Of a DNA stretch of 34,005 bases, positions 18,035 to 26,065 are shown piece by piece. How positions within the stretch are numbered: the first letter of the stretch is position 1; every line of letters starts with the position of its first letter. Origin of the DNA: Collimonas fungivorans (GTDB lineage: Bacteria; Pseudomonadota; Gammaproteobacteria; Burkholderiales; Burkholderiaceae_D); NCBI RefSeq assembly GCF_028292705.1, contig NZ_JAQGLV010000162.1:1-34005 (forward strand), in the 5' to 3' direction. A model generated the notes under the pieces. It was not told where the DNA came from, ran no database searches, and worked only from the letters and a program-made list of their open reading frames with translations. The translations under genes and the position numbers were made by a program.

Positions 18035-18071
18035 GAAAAGCCTTGCAAGTCATTGACTTGCAAGGCTTTTC
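18035..18071. terminator. Intrinsic terminator after ffh
   Basis: A perfect 17-bp stem (18035-18051 with 18055-18071) with loop ATT. The arms begin GAAAAGCC and end GGCTTTTC, so it can work on either strand. Confidence 0.9.
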
Positions 18072-18795: not shown

Positions 18796-19521
18796 TTAGT
18801 CGAGCAGATCCGAGTAGTCGATTTCCGCATAACCAGCCAGCGTCTTCCACGGCAACACCGGCGGCGCGGCGATCACGCTGACCGCAGTCTGGCGGCGCGC
18901 CATCCCATGCGCATCGAACGATTCCACCAGGCGCGGATACTGGCCCTTGACGTCCCAGCTGACCCGCACCGTCAATTCCCCACGCTTGCTTTCGTATAGC
19001 TGGACGCCGTCCTTGGCCGGACCGACGGCGCGCATGTTTTTCAGGCTCTGCGGATCGCTCAGGTAAAACGTGCTGCCCCAGTTGCCATTGAAACCGATAT
19101 TGCCGTAATACTGGGAGTCGACCTTGACGGTGCGGCGCTGGTGCCGCTCGATCAAACGCGCGTCCAGCGAACCGTCGGCCTGGCGGCGCACCCACATCGG
19201 CGAGCTGCCGGCATCCGGATGGTTGTGCCCGCTGTGATCGTGCTGATCGGCGGCGTCCGTGGTTCCGGCCGCAGTTTCAGCGACAGTCAGGCGCTCGGTC
19301 CATACCTGGTCGCTGCGCCGGTACAGGCGCTCGGTGAATGTCGTTTCGCGCTTGACGCCGTCACGTCCCAATACCATCGAATAGTGCTGCACCTGCAGGT
19401 TCTGGTCAGGCGCGCTGACCAGAACCTGCGCAGCGGCCAGCGCAGCCGGCAGCGGCGACAGCAGGACCAGTGCGGCCATCAGCTTACCGGCATCGTCCGC
19501 GATTTTTTTCAAGAAAATCAT
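18796..19521 (-). CDS. Unrecognised secreted protein with His-rich segment, beside alkaline phosphatases
   Basis: I do not recognise the family. The 241-residue product has a clear signal peptide: a basic start, a hydrophobic core at about 14-27, and likely cleavage after 'PLPAALA'. The mature part looks beta-rich ('YSMVLGRDGVKRETTFTERLYRR', 'TFYLSDPQSLKNMRAV', 'GELTVRVSWDVKGQYPRLVESF') and recalls periplasmic or lipoprotein-like folds. Residues 93-104 include His94, His96, His99 and His101 and could bind metal. It starts 63 bases after the upstream phosphatase gene on the same strand, with a hairpin between, so partial co-transcription is likely. Because alkaline phosphatases need Zn and Mg, a metal-related helper role is possible but only inferred. 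Confidence 0.8.
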   Translation of the reverse strand: MIFLKKIADDAGKLMAALVLLSPLPAALAAAQVLVSAPDQNLQVQHYSMVLGRDGVKRETTFTERLYRRSDQVWTERLTVAETAAGTTDAADQHDHSGHNHPDAGSSPMWVRRQADGSLDARLIERHQRRTVKVDSQYYGNIGFNGNWGSTFYLSDPQSLKNMRAVGPAKDGVQLYESKRGELTVRVSWDVKGQYPRLVESFDAHGMARRQTAVSVIAAPPVLPWKTLAGYAEIDYSDLLD

Positions 19522-19584: not shown

Positions 19585-21033
19585 TTACAAGCCAAGTGCG
19601 TTTTTCACTTTGCCAAACACCTTGATGTTTTCAAATGTACCCTTGAAGCTGTCGCTGCCGGCGCCAGCCGAGAACAGCATCACGTCGCCACCGCCGTGCG
19701 TCTCCGAACCGGGCGAGCCGGCAAAACGCACGCCGACCTGCTGCAGGTAGTCATCGGCTTCGGTATCGACATTGGTCAGGTCGCCGTCTTCCGGACGGCG
19801 CGGCGCGCTGCCGTTGCCGAACACCAGCGTGGTGTAGGGTTTGCCGTCGGCCGCCAGCGCCAGCTTGCCGTCGTAGTAGTTGGCGACCTTGCCCAGGATC
19901 GGGTTGCCGCGCTTGGGATAACCGTTGAAGCCGATCGCGTGATCGTGGTCGGCAGTCACCACTATCAAGGTGTCTTTCAGGTCGACCAGCTCCAGCGCCT
20001 TCTTGATCGCGGCATCAAAAGCCAGGGTATCTTCCAATGCGCGTTTGGCGTTGGTGCCGTGCAAGGCATGGTCGATGCGGCCGCCTTCCACCATCAGGAA
20101 ATAGCCTTTCGGATTTTTCTTGAGCACGCCGATGGCTTTTTCAGTCATCTCGGCCAGGCTTGGCTGGTTCAGGTTTTTCTTGACGCGGTCCAGTTCGTAA
20201 TCCATGTCGCTGGCGCTGAACAAGCCCAGCAGTTTGCTGACGCCGGCCGGATTGACGTTCTTCAGTTCGCTGCCCGACGCGACGTAGGTATATCCCGCCG
20301 CCTTGAACATGCCCAGCGCATCGAGCTCGTCGTTACGCTGGCTGCCCGGCGTGCTCTTCGGCAGGAAATGCCGCAAGCCGCCGCCCAGCAAGACATCGAC
20401 GCCATCCTTCAGCGCCGTGTTGTAGCGCGCCGCGCCCGGTGTCGCCTGTTCGGTGATGGTGTTGTAAGCATCGCGGTTGCAGACGTGGGAATACGTCGTG
20501 GCCGGCGTGGCATGGCTGATGCGGGTGGTGCTGACTGCGCCGACCGCCTTGCCCGCGCCCTTGGCCAGTTCCAGCAAAGTCTGCACCGGCTGGCCGTTGC
20601 CGGCCACGCAGGTGGAGTCAGCCTTGACTTGATACGGTTTGCCGTTGGCGTCGAAGGCACTGGTATCGGAAGACATGGAAATCACATCGTTCTTCATCTT
20701 GACGCCGGTCATGTACGCCGCCATCGACGGTGCGCTGTCGGTGGTCTGGGCATCCAGCGAGAAGGTCTTGACGCGCGCAGTGCGGGTCAAGGTCTCCATG
20801 GTCAGGCGCCCTGCTTCGCCATGGCCGTAGATGCGCGCCGCGGTGACAGTCACCGGGCCCATGCCGTCGCCCAGGAAGAAGATGACGTTTTTCGCGGCGG
20901 CAGCGTCGGCTGCCATGACGTTCGCGGTGAAGAGTAAAGACAGCGGCGTCAACGCGCACAGTGCGGCGCATTGGTAGATCCGGCGCTGGAATTGCTTGCT
21001 GCTTGGCTTATTGGCTGATTTCATCATTTTCAT
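19585..21033 (-). CDS. phoA: Alkaline phosphatase, soluble secreted paralogue
   Basis: A 482-residue enzyme of the PhoA family that hydrolyses phosphate monoesters in the periplasm. A long signal peptide ends near residue 41 ('LLFTANVMA'). Catalytic and metal residues can be followed: Asp56 ('FFLGDGMG'), nucleophile Ser100 in 'TTDSAPSMAAYMTG', Arg171 ('TTRISHATPA'), Glu316 and Asp321 with His325 in 'VEGGRIDHALH', Asp362/His363 in 'TADHDHA', and His446 in 'SETHGGGD'. 'GGRIDH' in place of the E. coli Asp-Lys pair places it with the His-type, often more active, enzymes. The ATG at 21033 follows AAAGGT. The lipoprotein paralogue ends 40 bases upstream on the same strand, so the two form an operon. 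Confidence 0.93.
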   Translation of the reverse strand: MKMMKSANKPSSKQFQRRIYQCAALCALTPLSLLFTANVMAADAAAAKNVIFFLGDGMGPVTVTAARIYGHGEAGRLTMETLTRTARVKTFSLDAQTTDSAPSMAAYMTGVKMKNDVISMSSDTSAFDANGKPYQVKADSTCVAGNGQPVQTLLELAKGAGKAVGAVSTTRISHATPATTYSHVCNRDAYNTITEQATPGAARYNTALKDGVDVLLGGGLRHFLPKSTPGSQRNDELDALGMFKAAGYTYVASGSELKNVNPAGVSKLLGLFSASDMDYELDRVKKNLNQPSLAEMTEKAIGVLKKNPKGYFLMVEGGRIDHALHGTNAKRALEDTLAFDAAIKKALELVDLKDTLIVVTADHDHAIGFNGYPKRGNPILGKVANYYDGKLALAADGKPYTTLVFGNGSAPRRPEDGDLTNVDTEADDYLQQVGVRFAGSPGSETHGGGDVMLFSAGAGSDSFKGTFENIKVFGKVKNALGL

Positions 21034-21072
21034 CTCTGACCTTTGTATATATTCGGCAAATTCGAAGCAGCA

Positions 21073-22515
21073 TCACAGGCCGACGGCTTTTTTCACCAGG
21101 CCGAACACCTCGGTGTTATCGAGCACGCCGCGGATATTCTCGGCCCCCAGTCCCTGTGCACCGATGAAGACGTTGGTGCCGCCGTGGGTTTCCCCGCCGG
21201 CTTCGGTCGGGATCACCGACTCTTGCATGTAGTCCTTGTCAGCTACCTGCATGTCGGACAATGCGCCACGCGTGGCCAGGTGGTTGGGGCCGTTGCCGAA
21301 ACCGATCACGGTGTAAGGGTTATTGTTGATATCGCGTTCAGGCTGGCCGGTAGCGACATTTTTCACCAGGCCGAGCACACCCGGCTCGCTGCTGGTGGTC
21401 TTGCCGGTGCGCTTGGCGTAGCCGTTCAGCAGGATCGAATGGTCATGGTCGGCGGTGACCACCACCAGGGTGTTTTTCAAGCCCGGATCGACTTGCTGCA
21501 TCTTGTCCAGCGCGACCTTGATCGCGTCGTCGAATGCAACGGTTTCCTGCAACGCGCGACGCGCATTGGTGGCGTGCAAGGCATGGTCGATGCGGCCGCC
21601 CTCCACCATCAGGAAGAAGCCGGTTTTCTTGCTGTTCAGCAGGTCGATCGACTTGCCCGTCATCTGCGCCAGGCTCGGTTCCTTGGCGGCGTCGCGGTCG
21701 AGGTCGTAAGTCATGTGGTCTTTGTGGAACAGGCCGACCACTTTCGGCGTTGCAGCGCCGATCTTGTCGAACTCGGCAAAGTTGCTGGCATAGGTATAGC
21801 CCGCCGCCTTGAATTCGGCCACCAGGTCGCGGCTGTCGCTGCGCTTGCTGTCGGCGTCGGCTTTCGGCAGGAAATGACGGCGGCCGCCGCCGAAAATGAC
21901 GTCGACGCCATCGTTCAGCTTGCTGTTGAAGCCGGCGCCCTTCGGCGTCAGTTGCGCGGCGATATTGTTTTCGCCGTCGCGGTGGCAGATGTGCGAATAA
22001 GTCGCCGCCGGCGTCGCATGCGTGATCCGGGTGGTGGTCACGACGCCGGTGCTGTAGCCCTTGGCCTTCATGATCTCCAGCAAAGTGTCAGCCGGTGTGC
22101 CGTTGCCGCCGGGGCAGGTGCTGTCGGCGCCGTTGACATAACTTTTGCCGCCGGCGTCGCGGGCGCTGGTATTGGCCGACATGGCAATCACTTCGTTGTT
22201 CGCCTTGACGCCGGTCATGTAGGCCGCCATCGACGGTGCGCTGTCGGTTACCTGGGCATCGTTGGAATAGGTCGTGACGAAACCGCTTTCCGGCAGGGTA
22301 TCGATGGTCAGGTCGCCCTCTTCGCCCACTTTGTAGATGCGGGCGGCAGTCATGGTAGTAATGCCCATGCCGTCGCCCAGGAAGAAGATCACATTCTTGC
22401 CCGGCTTGACTTCAGGCCGCTCGACCGGCACCTCGACCAGTGGATTGCTGGAACCGCTACATCCCACCAGCGCCATCGCTCCCGTGGCGGCGGCAATCAA
22501 AATACGTAATTTCAT
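21073..22515 (-). CDS. Alkaline phosphatase, lipoprotein paralogue
   Basis: A 480-residue paralogue of the next gene, with the same order of motifs: Asp48 ('FFLGDGMG'), nucleophile Ser92 in 'VTDSAPSMAAYMTG', 'TTRITHATPA', 'VEGGRIDHALH', 'TADHDHS' and 'GETHGGTN'. The N-terminus differs: a short signal with lipobox Leu-Val-Gly-Cys19 followed by Ser-Gly-Ser-Ser. The protein should therefore be lipidated and held in a membrane, probably the outer one because no Asp follows the Cys. The ATG at 22515 has GGAG six bases upstream. It is the first gene of the phosphatase unit; its upstream region has three TGTAA copies at about helical spacing but no clear Pho box. Confidence 0.92.
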   Translation of the reverse strand: MKLRILIAAATGAMALVGCSGSSNPLVEVPVERPEVKPGKNVIFFLGDGMGITTMTAARIYKVGEEGDLTIDTLPESGFVTTYSNDAQVTDSAPSMAAYMTGVKANNEVIAMSANTSARDAGGKSYVNGADSTCPGGNGTPADTLLEIMKAKGYSTGVVTTTRITHATPAATYSHICHRDGENNIAAQLTPKGAGFNSKLNDGVDVIFGGGRRHFLPKADADSKRSDSRDLVAEFKAAGYTYASNFAEFDKIGAATPKVVGLFHKDHMTYDLDRDAAKEPSLAQMTGKSIDLLNSKKTGFFLMVEGGRIDHALHATNARRALQETVAFDDAIKVALDKMQQVDPGLKNTLVVVTADHDHSILLNGYAKRTGKTTSSEPGVLGLVKNVATGQPERDINNNPYTVIGFGNGPNHLATRGALSDMQVADKDYMQESVIPTEAGGETHGGTNVFIGAQGLGAENIRGVLDNTEVFGLVKKAVGL

Positions 22516-22737
22516 TCATCGCTCCGTGTTGTCAATCAGAAACATGCAGTCATTTGTAATAATGTGTAACAACTGTAACCAGAAGTTATTACATGCTGAT
22601 GACGGAAGAGCATGGATCTTCAGAAAATGGGAGTCGCGACGGAAGATTGACCCGTGCAATGCCGGGGTCAATCAAAGGGGAGAAAGGGGAGTTGGGTGCT
22701 TGCTGCGAGCCGGCACAGCCGTTGGCGATGGAAATGT
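22516..22737 (-). promoter_or_regulatory. Upstream region of the phosphatase operon
   Basis: No gene. On the + strand TGTAA occurs at 22555-22559, 22565-22569 and 22574-22578, about one helical turn apart, 40-60 bases before the phosphatase ATG. This may be an operator, but the spacing and sequence do not fit the 11-bp-period Pho box. Nearer the transglycosylase end, TTGACCC (22647-22653) pairs with GGGTCAA (22665-22671). It lacks a T-run, so it is at best a weak terminator for the transglycosylase gene. Confidence 0.35.
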
Positions 22738-23376
22738 TTACTTGCGTGCTGATACCGTATGTATCGGCAGGTCGTCCTTGTATTCCCAGCGTTTCCACGC
22801 TGCCAGCACGGCATTGGGATACTCGGGACGGCCGCGGCTGCCGTTGTAGCGGCCGAGCGCGAGGTACAGGTTGCCCTTTTCCATGTCGATATACATGCGC
22901 AGGATAGAACAGCCGTAACGCAGGTTGGTCTGCATGTTGAACAGCTTGCTGCGGTCGGCGTCGCCGATCACGCGGGTCCAGAACGGCATCACCTGCATGT
23001 AGCCGTGGGCGCTGACGCTGGACAGCGCGTACTTGCGGAACGCCGATTCGACCTGGATCAGGCCCAGCACCATGCCTGGATCAAGGCCGGCGCGTTTGGC
23101 TTCATACCAGGCGGTTTCCAGGAATTCGATGCGCACCTGCGCATCCGGCAGCTTCTTCTTCAGGCGTTCCGACATTTCGCCCAGCCAGTACAGGTACTGG
23201 ATGCGCTGGTCGATTTCAGAGAATTGGGCTTTGGGGGGACGGGCGTCATTGATGGCGCGTGACAAAGCCAGGCGTACCGAATCCGCCAGCTCTTCTTCTT
23301 TTTGATTTCCGGCCTGCGCCATGCTGCAGAGCAGCAACAACATGGGCAACAAGCCAAGCCAACGAGACCAGCGCAA
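22738..23376 (-). CDS. Lytic transglycosylase with SLT domain
   Basis: A secreted peptidoglycan-cleaving enzyme of the soluble lytic transglycosylase fold. It cuts the MurNAc-GlcNAc bond with formation of an anhydro ring. From the TTG at 23376 the protein has 212 residues with a textbook signal peptide ('MRWSRWLGLLPMLLLLCSMAQA'-type, split here after AQA). The frame is open to 23421, but that earlier TTG has no ribosome-binding site and would spoil the signal. The SLT core shows the catalytic Glu in 'LIQVESAFRKYALSSVSAHG', then 'GYMQVMPFW' and 'ALGRYNGSRGRPEYP'. GGGGAG six bases before 23376 is the likely Shine-Dalgarno and lies in a perfect hairpin. It follows proS on the same strand. Confidence 0.85.
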   Translation of the reverse strand: MRWSRWLGLLPMLLLLCSMAQAGNQKEEELADSVRLALSRAINDARPPKAQFSEIDQRIQYLYWLGEMSERLKKKLPDAQVRIEFLETAWYEAKRAGLDPGMVLGLIQVESAFRKYALSSVSAHGYMQVMPFWTRVIGDADRSKLFNMQTNLRYGCSILRMYIDMEKGNLYLALGRYNGSRGRPEYPNAVLAAWKRWEYKDDLPIHTVSARK

Positions 23377-23382
23377 TCGATA

Positions 23383-23412
23383 CTCCCCAAAATACACTTT
23401 TATTTTGGGGAG
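23383..23412 (-). promoter_or_regulatory. Hairpin sequestering the transglycosylase ribosome-binding site
   Basis: On the minus strand CTCCCCAAAATA (23412-23401) pairs perfectly with TATTTTGGGGAG (23394-23383) across a 6-base loop. Outer ATACTC/GAGTAT bases can extend it with a small bulge. The 3' arm contains GGGGAG, six bases before the TTG start at 23376. No T-run follows, so it is not a terminator for proS. It could gate translation. Confidence 0.6.
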
Positions 23413-23461
23413 AGTATACAAAGAAAACGGCGCAAAAAACCAATCCGCCGCAAATCTGTTG

Positions 23462-25204
23462 TTATTGGGAAACTAGGCGAGCCTTGATGAAGCCTGCCAC
23501 GTCCGCCAGCGGCACCGTAGTTGCCTCGGTATCGCGCCGTCCCTGGTACTCCAGCTGGCCATCCTTGAGGCCGCGGTCGCCGATCACCACGCGATGCGGC
23601 ACGCCGATCAGTTCCCAGTCGGCGAACATCGCGCCCGGGCGCTCGCCGCGGTCGTCCAGGATCACATCGACGCCGGCAGCCAGCAAGGTGTCGTACAGCT
23701 TGTCGGTCTCGGCCTTGACCGCTTCGCTGCGGTCATAGCCCATAGGGCACAGGACTACTTCGAACGGAGCGATGGAGGTTGGCCAGATGATGCCTTTGTC
23801 GTCGAAATTCTGTTCGATCGCGGCGCCCAGGATGCGTGTGATGCCAATTCCATAACATCCCATCTGCAGCATCTGCGGCTTGCCGTTCTCGTCCAGGAAA
23901 GTCGCTTTCATCGATTCCGAATAGGCCGTGCCCAGCTGGAACACGTGGCCGACTTCGATCCCGCGCAAGATCGCCAGGGCGCCCTTGCCGTCCGGGGAAG
24001 GGTCGCCTTCCACCACGTTGCGGATATCGAACACCATAGGCTCGGGCAAGTCGCGGCCCCAATTGACGCCGGTGTAGTGGAAATCCACTTCGTTGGCGCC
24101 GCTGACGAAGTCATGCATGTTGGCGACAGTGACGTCCGCTACAACGGTAACCGGCTTCTTGGTATTGACCGGGCCAAGGTAGCCTGGCGGCGTGCCGAAG
24201 TACTCGACAATCTCCGGTTCGGTAGCAAAACGATAACCAGCCAGGCCCGGAATCTTGTTGGCCTTGATTTCGTTGAGCTCATGGTCGCCGCGCAGCATCA
24301 GCAGCCAGACCACCTTGCTTGCCGGCTCTTTGTCGGTTGCTTCTTTTTCAACAGTCAGCACGATCGACTTGATGGTTTGCGTCAAAGGCAGCTGCAGCAG
24401 CTCGGCTACCGCTTCGCATTTGGCCTTGCCCGGGGTCGCCGTCTTGGTCAGCGCCTGGGTTGCCGCGCCGCGAGTCGGATACAAAGGCAGGGACTCGGCC
24501 GCTTCCATATTGGCGGCGTAATCCGAGTTCGGGCAATACACGATGGCGTCTTCGCCGGTAGCGGCGATGACGTGGAATTCATGCGAACCGGTGCCGCCGA
24601 TGGCGCCGTTATCGGCCGCCACCGCCCTGAATTGCAGGCCGAAGCGGTTGAAAATGCGGACGTAGGCGTCGTACATGATCTGGTAGGACTGTTTCAGGCC
24701 ATCCAGGTCGCGATCGAAGGAATAGGCGTCTTTCATCGTGAATTCGCGTCCGCGCATCAAGCCGAAGCGTGGCCGGCGCTCATCGCGGAACTTGGTCTGG
24801 ATATGGTAAAAATTCACCGGCAGCTTGCGGTAAGAGCGCAATTCGGTGCGGGCGATGTCAGTAATCACTTCTTCTGAAGTCGGCTGGATGATGAAGTCTC
24901 GGCCGTGACGGTCCTTGACGCGCATCAGTTCGGCGCCGTATTTCTGCCAGCGCCCGGTTTCCTGCCACAGTTCGGCCGGCTGCACGACCGGCATCAGCAA
25001 TTCCACCGCCCCGGAACGGTTCATCTCTTCGCGCACGATGCTCTCCACCTTGCGGATCACGCGCAAACCCATCGGCATATAGGAGTAAATGCCGGAACTG
25101 ATGCGCTTGATCATGCCGGCGCGCATCATCAGTTTGTGGCTGACGATTTCTGCGTCGGATGGAGCTTCTTTGAGCGTGGAGATAAAAAAACGGGAGGCGC
25201 GCAT
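23462..25204 (-). CDS. proS: Prolyl-tRNA synthetase (bacterial type)
   Basis: A 580-residue class II aminoacyl-tRNA synthetase that charges tRNA-Pro. Class II motif 1 lies around '[22 protein letters not shown]', motif 2 in '[25 protein letters not shown]' (shown by FRDE and [10 protein letters not shown]), and motif 3 in '[17 protein letters not shown]'. A large insertion of about 180 residues between motifs 2 and 3 is the editing domain of bacterial-type ProRS, which clears mischarged Ala. A C-terminal anticodon-binding domain ends the protein ('[20 protein letters not shown]'). Length is normal. The ATG at 25204 has no strong ribosome-binding site. It is divergent from rppH, an arrangement seen in other Burkholderiales. 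Confidence 0.97.
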
Positions 25205-25489
25205 AACGATGAATTCTTTTTAAAAAGAGAGGGTTATAATCAACTCAATTTTAAAGGATTAGCTGGCTGATGCGCCTACTCTTTGCACAATTGATTGATG
25301 TTCTGGCCATTGTTGTTACTGGCAAGGACAGATTGCGCGCCTGATCGGGCGAGGACAGAGCTTTACGCCTAACCATGGCGGCTGCATGAACCTGTCCCGC
25401 AATGTTGACGGCAAGCAAGGAATCTAGCAGAACATCTAGCAAAATGCGCAGTAGAGCCGCCTGGCCGCAGAAAGTTTTGAGGTAACAAC
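25205..25489. other. Divergent spacer between proS and rppH
   Basis: No gene is supported. An AT-rich stretch (about 25205-25260) holds TATAAT at 25235-25240 on the + strand, but no good -35 at the right distance, so only a tentative promoter can be placed. Near rppH the 8-bp sequence ATCTAGCA is directly repeated (25422-25429 and 25434-25441). GAGG precedes the rppH start. Confidence 0.4.
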
Positions 25490-26065
25490 ATGCTTGACCG
25501 TGAAGGCTTTCGCCCGAACGTCGGCATTATCTTGCTCAACACCCAGAACGAAGTCTGGTGGGGCAAGCGCGTGCGTGAACATTCGTGGCAATTTCCACAA
25601 GGCGGTATCAAATACGGTGAAACCCCGGAGCAGGCAATGTTTCGCGAACTCGAGGAAGAGATCGGGCTGAAGGCGGAACACGTCAAGATCATCGGCCGCA
25701 CCCGCGACTGGCTGCGCTATGAAGTGCCCGATCATTTCATCAAGCGCGACGTGCGCGGACATTATCGCGGCCAGAAACAGATCTGGTTCCTGCTGCGCAT
25801 GGTGGGACGCGACTGCGACGTCAACCTGCGCCTCACCGAACACCCCGAATTCGACGCCTGGCGCTGGCATGATTACTGGGTGCCGCTGGATGTCGTGATC
25901 GAATTCAAACGCGATGTCTACCAGCGCGCCTTGCAAGAATTATCACGTTTCCTGACGCGCCCGCTGCAAAACGCGCCGCATCACGCCCGTCACCTGCGCA
26001 CCGGCCACGGTCCGCGCGCAGCGACGCAATCCCCTCCGGCCTGTGCCGAACCCGAAAAGAAGTGA
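25490..26065 (+). CDS. rppH: RNA pyrophosphohydrolase (Nudix)
   Basis: A 191-residue Nudix hydrolase that removes 5' phosphates from primary transcripts and so opens them to RNase E decay. The Nudix box is exact: Gly38-x5-Glu44-x7-Arg52-Glu53-Leu-x-Glu56-Glu57-x-Gly59-Leu60 in '[20 protein letters not shown]'. The N-terminus '[17 protein letters not shown]' and the '[10 protein letters not shown]' strand are diagnostic for RppH. The C-terminal 30 residues are a His/Pro-rich variable tail. The ATG at 25490 has GAGG upstream. The stop overlaps the region of the next gene's start, so a secreted CNP1-like protein is probably co-transcribed. Confidence 0.95.

Follow-up and report, generated by a model that had tools for sequence, protein, structure and literature searches.

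Why does the gene of a wall-cutting enzyme carry its ribosome-binding site inside a hairpin? The window analyzed here, a stretch of 34,005 nucleotides (nt) of Collimonas fungivorans (contig NZ_JAQGLV010000162.1, positions 1 to 34,005), contains such a gene downstream of proS, on the minus strand. The original prediction, made from the sequence of the window, read the hairpin as a possible translational switch, responsive for example to temperature or to a protein, that limits a lytic transglycosylase (LT). We studied the start of the LT gene, the hairpin in the window and in relatives, the predicted cost of opening the Shine-Dalgarno sequence (SD), and the sequence between proS and LT. The features are listed in Table 1.

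Table 1. Features of the proS-LT region in the window (minus-strand features; positions are those of the window)
Feature	Position	Strand	Evidence
proS, prolyl-tRNA synthetase, gene upstream of LT	23462..25204	-	ORF; PF00587, PF04073, PF03129
Hairpin resembling a terminator, past proS; GCGGCG/CGCCGT stem followed by TTTTCTTT	23420..23451	-	Predicted folds (12 Collimonas leaders, L016)
TATACT, proposed -10 box; in most relatives, its ATACT is paired to an AGTAT next to the SD	23413..23418	-	Invariant in 12/12 Collimonas leaders; promoter role inferred
Hairpin 5' arm CTCCCCAAAATA; proposed discriminator in its first 6 nt, proposed +1 at A 23406	23401..23412	-	6-nt spacing constant in 12/12 leaders
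Hairpin loop AAAGTG	23395..23400	-	Sequence
Hairpin 3' arm TATTTTGGGGAG; contains the SD GGGGAG (23388-23383)	23383..23394	-	Sequence, opening energy
Exported lytic transglycosylase (LT), SLT domain, 212 aa, TTG start	22738..23376	-	PF01464; TTG in 17/17 leaders

RESULTS

The LT gene and its start codon

The PF01464 match agrees with the predicted wall-degrading lytic transglycosylase, and in a structure comparison the best-matching solved structures were soluble lytic transglycosylases. No NCBIfam model matched the protein at or above its cut-off. TTG 23376 had been proposed as the start codon. In the window, GGGGAG is followed on the minus strand by 6 nt and then by this TTG, and in all 17 leaders examined the start TTG lies 5 to 6 nt past GGAG, which upholds the proposed start. 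The alternative start TTG 23421 was rejected, because its distance from TTG 23376 differs by 1 nt among species and the reading frame is thus lost. After LT, two neighboring alkaline phosphatase genes (21073-22515 and 19585-21033, minus strand) were noted; both match PF00245 with 345.7 bits.

A perfect hairpin contains the SD

The leader hairpin CTCCCCAAAATA-AAAGTG-TATTTTGGGGAG (23412-23383, minus strand) was found as predicted, with a perfect 12-bp stem, a 6-nt loop, and the SD in its 3' arm. The view that it is not a terminator also held: it has no T-run, TATCGA comes after 23412-23383, and a terminator scan of positions 22600 to 23800 reported none.

The exact arms, with a loop of 3 to 12 nt, occur once in the genome assembly, which is 86.9% complete; at this completeness, a dispersed repeat was excluded. 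The rarity of a perfect repeat as such was discarded as an argument, since 434,005 bases contained 24 perfect repeats with arms of 12 bp or more and loops of 3 to 12 nt, 7 of them within the window. The unusual property is the location of the repeat over an SD, not the repeat itself. Further perfect inverted repeats of 14 to 17 bp with loops of 3 to 5 nt were seen at 18035-18071, 19395-19429, and 254-284.

A search with Rfam 15 at gathering scores yielded no match in window positions 20000 to 26000, and a known riboswitch or leader RNA family was therefore rejected for this range. The suggested control by a protein (or a ligand) was not borne out: besides the missing Rfam match, the leader extends only about 30 nt past the 5' arm.

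Opening the SD is predicted to be costly

At LT, the predicted cost of opening the SD was 14.7 kcal/mol, the highest among 246 genes (next value 9.5, 99th percentile 9.0, median 2.6 kcal/mol); the starts in this set are unverified and were chosen for having an SD, as our home-made gene caller selects, for each gene, the start preceded by the best SD. The cost in the window was 16.3, 14.5, 13.4, 12.1, and 10.8 kcal/mol at 5, 20, 28, 37, and 45°C, respectively. With 10.8 kcal/mol still to be paid at 45°C in the model, an RNA thermometer was rejected, and with it the temperature-responsive switch of the original prediction. These calculations support sequestration of the SD by the hairpin, which should block translation of LT.

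The opening of GGAG was then computed for all 17 leaders with 60 nt upstream and 20 nt downstream. The cost was 8 kcal/mol or more in 12 of them (10/12 from Collimonas and 2/5 from the genus g15, see below), and it exceeded the value obtained with shuffled upstream sequence (p<0.05) in 12 as well (nine Collimonas, three g15). When the inner part only was shuffled, p was above 0.05 in 7 of 13 leaders. The weak leaders were those of G010 (3.5 kcal/mol) and G092 (3.1 kcal/mol).

A hairpin over the SD is predicted in two genera

LT matches at a strict threshold were found in 14 of 15 Collimonas genomes, and the perfect form of the hairpin in 3 of these 14, namely, the window's genome, G003, and G012. 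Perfection of the repeat thus belongs to one small clade. The other Collimonas leaders mostly have an outer stem ATACTC/GAGTAT and an altered inner stem. L003 and L004 were left out as duplicates (their leader is that of the window from the terminator on), and so were L032 to L035, named Collimonas records with leaders of the same kind, identical to those of L009, L008, L011, and L010, respectively. In all 12 distinct Collimonas leaders the SD is paired in the predicted fold, with one SD G unpaired in G008.

The closest genus outside Collimonas by LT similarity is g15, represented by five genomes. Its arms are very different and yet fold over the SD, for example CCTCGGAAATC with GATTTTCCGAGG in L114; altogether, the SD is paired in the predicted folds of 17/17 distinct leaders of the two genera (12 Collimonas, 5 g15). 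Loss of the pairing in close relatives had been named as the result that would speak against the hairpin. The outcome was divided: the exact pairing is lost, but the SD is still covered by a predicted hairpin. Within the 5' arm of g15 we also noticed a separate palindrome (TTTCCGCGGAAA in L112, GGTTTCCGCGGAAACC in L116), possibly a DNA site or an additional fold.

Pairing is stronger between native than between swapped arms

Native inner arms paired better than inner arms swapped between leaders (P=0.0003 for 10 leaders, P=0.006 for 7), and native whole arms better than swapped whole arms (P=0.016 and 0.031, respectively). With g15 added to the 7 leaders, P was 0.00005, and for g15 alone it was 0.066; in all these comparisons, related leaders are treated as exchangeable and independent, while the tree shows their kinship. 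G014 and G004 were additionally left out of the swaps. The 7 leaders, one per group, were picked by eye before the tree was available, and two pairs of leaders in the sample (window and G008, G005 and G007) share clades.

Column-wise covariation was nearly absent in the two registers tried. In the window's register, 88.5% of the cells were paired (at most 57.1% when the columns were slid) and no pair had a double change; in the other register, 84.3% were paired and one pair had a double change, C-G to U-A in three leaders. Such covariation was therefore dropped as proof of structure. Because pairing is high but double changes are almost lacking, the structure appears to be kept mainly by register shifts and wobble pairs, and the evidence for selection on it is moderate.

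A decayed gene copy was informative. In G001, a 1.7-Mb genome of the same genus, locus L170 (G001:C3:15000-16200) contains remains of LT beside proS in three match pieces, two of them with stops. The -10-like CATACT, the 6-nt spacing, and AAAATAAA are still there, and the hairpin is gone; the GGAG sequences resembling an SD would open at a cost of 0.05 and 2.3 kcal/mol. This natural experiment, a single case, agrees with selection on the hairpin.

A promoter-like sequence adjoins the 5' arm

The 5' arm adjoins CTTTGTATACT, which is invariant in the 12 distinct Collimonas leaders. In every one of them, 6 variable bases, never more or fewer, separate it from a downstream AAAAT (AAAT in G006). 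TATACT, 6 nt, and an A-rich stretch correspond to -10 box, discriminator, and +1 purine of a putative promoter. The pairing partners of TATACT change from U-A to U-G in 4 of the 12 leaders and are broken in one, while TATACT itself does not change; pairing alone is thus insufficient to account for its invariance. No -35 box was visible for TATACT, and a consensus promoter scan reported none.

In other genera, ATACT was present in 14 of 59 spacers, some of which are from near-copy loci, compared with a mean of 1.7 after shuffling, and 14 was reached in none of 300 shuffles. AGTAT was likewise frequent there (12/59). The base after the 6 nt is not A in several of these loci. In g15, inspection by eye revealed a clear -10 inside the 5' arm in L016 only and none in the other four leaders. 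In L025, L072, L055, and L164, CATACT or GATACT is followed by 6 nt and then by ATG, a possible leaderless LT start in other genera.

Since the 5' arm overlaps the -10-like TATACT with its A-rich stretch 6 nt further on, the mRNA of LT's own promoter may not contain the block on the SD. For the window, RNA started at A 23406, without the CTCCCC part of the arm, had a predicted SD cost of 0.0 instead of 12.1 kcal/mol, or of 1.2 kcal/mol by a second calculation that counts different bases. The predicted cost fell with RNA from the proposed +1 in 13/13 leaders tested, which is no independent test, as removal of the 5' arm must lower it. The short RNA still costs 4.5 to 6.1 kcal/mol in L006, L011, L012, L015, and L016.

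A terminator-like hairpin lies between proS and LT

LT of the window lies 85 nt past the end of proS on the same strand. A same-strand proS was found beside LT in 148/148 loci, a set chosen through LT matches. The two genes are separated by an operon-like gap of less than 35 nt in 62 of 135 distinct loci. The Collimonas spacers measure 85 to 134 nt in distinct leaders other than L011 (G013), where 283 nt separate the genes.

Within the Collimonas spacer, a terminator-like hairpin is predicted in 12/12 leaders, in most of them as CGGCGC/GCGCCG followed by TTTTCTTT; in L013 and L015 the bases of the stem differ with pairing kept, and L016 has such a hairpin with other bases. The fold of the window is the weakest, and most relatives have a stronger one. 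The terminator scan, with its loop limit of 8, missed the hairpin at 23420..23451.

DISCUSSION

Our preferred reading, to which we give about even chances, is that the hairpin is a kept, transcript-selective translational lock. The promoter, the read-through, and the translation block are inferred parts of it. RNA reading through the terminator of proS would carry both arms, so that the SD would be buried and LT would not be made. RNA from LT's own promoter (-10 TATACT, +1 near A 23406) would begin after CTCCCC of the 5' arm. The stem that covers the SD could not form in it, and modest translation from the TTG would be possible. LT would in this way be insulated twice, by termination and by the SD hairpin, from the transcription of the housekeeping gene proS, and a plausible reason for the lock is the separation of a wall-cutting enzyme from such transcription.

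A transcript that always contains the lock has to be weighed against this. Transcription would come from upstream of the 5' arm, by read-through or from a promoter within proS. Translation would be kept low by the hairpin, or the hairpin would be opened by a helicase, a small RNA, a ligand, or temperature. The folding over the SD in all 17 leaders, the lack of a visible -35 box for TATACT, and the operon-like gaps in 62 of 135 distinct relatives fit this idea, which we nevertheless consider unlikely given the terminator-like hairpin between the genes and the conservation of TATACT beyond the needs of pairing; its temperature version has the remaining 10.8 kcal/mol at 45°C against it. Rather improbable, too, is an incidental pairing, in which the complementarity of a conserved -10 box to a conserved SD is a coincidence and their A- and T-rich neighbors pair by chance. 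The near lack of double changes, inner shuffles that are only suggestive, and 24 perfect repeats in 434 kb are what it would lead one to expect, but it is at odds with the first rank among 246 genes, the arm-swap test, the different arms that still pair in g15 (L114), and, in one case, the loss of the hairpin in the decayed copy of G001.

The dyad could also act as DNA, with a regulator bound over promoter and SD. It overlaps the proposed -10 box, and the short palindrome TTTCCGCGGAAA of L112 lies within a g15 5' arm; the half-sites, however, vary among species, and the arms have one-sided bulges, features more in keeping with RNA than with a symmetric binding site of a protein; we regard an operator as very unlikely. 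The idea of a remnant or atypical terminator draws on the presence of terminator-like stems among the perfect stems of such length in our sample. We give it hardly any credence, as the stem has no T-run, was unreported by the scan, and ends in the SD.

If the transcript-selective lock is real, a bacterial wall enzyme that could damage its own cell is shielded from upstream transcription at the level of translation in addition to termination, and one sequence is both promoter and anti-SD strand. Other genes whose -10 box is complementary to their own SD are easy to search for, and this kind of insulation could be general.

Among the matches listed in a search of the open-access literature, as far as their text was available, none described this arrangement for the gene of a bacterial transglycosylase. 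Related principles are known. In IS10/Tn10 and related transposase leaders, translation is blocked only in RNA from outside promoters; IS10/Tn10 is a mobile element, whereas LT is a single-copy cellular gene. RNA thermometers have their SD within a leader hairpin. The LT hairpin shares this placement but retains a predicted 10.8 kcal/mol at 45°C. The YjbJ motif WRC-39-1, a candidate RNA in the leader of a gene predicted to encode a lytic transglycosylase, differs from the LT leader: according to the available part of the source, it is confined to Streptococcus, lies about 30 nt ahead of the SD, and is not described there as burying it (PMC11109978).

The closest likeness is to gene e of phage T4. 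In the accessible portion of the source, long early transcripts of this gene fold over the SD and lysozyme synthesis is decreased 100-fold, the late promoters lie within the 5' strand of the SD hairpin, and the leaders of soc, 49, and I-TevI are grouped with that of gene e (PMC3014915). Judging from that portion, LT resembles gene e in the wall-cutting product and would resemble it in an SD buried in long RNA started upstream and, if the proposed promoter is real, in a promoter within the 5' strand of the hairpin. In T4, phage late promoters serve timing, and the arrangement was proven by mutants and mapped RNA ends, as described in the same portion (PMC3014915). LT, in contrast, is a bacterial chromosomal gene with a sigma-70-like box, known here from sequence and predicted folds. 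With somewhat less than even confidence, we propose that LT is a non-phage, chromosomal wall hydrolase gene with a lock of the T4 lysozyme kind, kept through Collimonas and present in another form in the neighboring genus, in which promoter and SD are mutually antisense and only the promoter-proximal RNA is translated.
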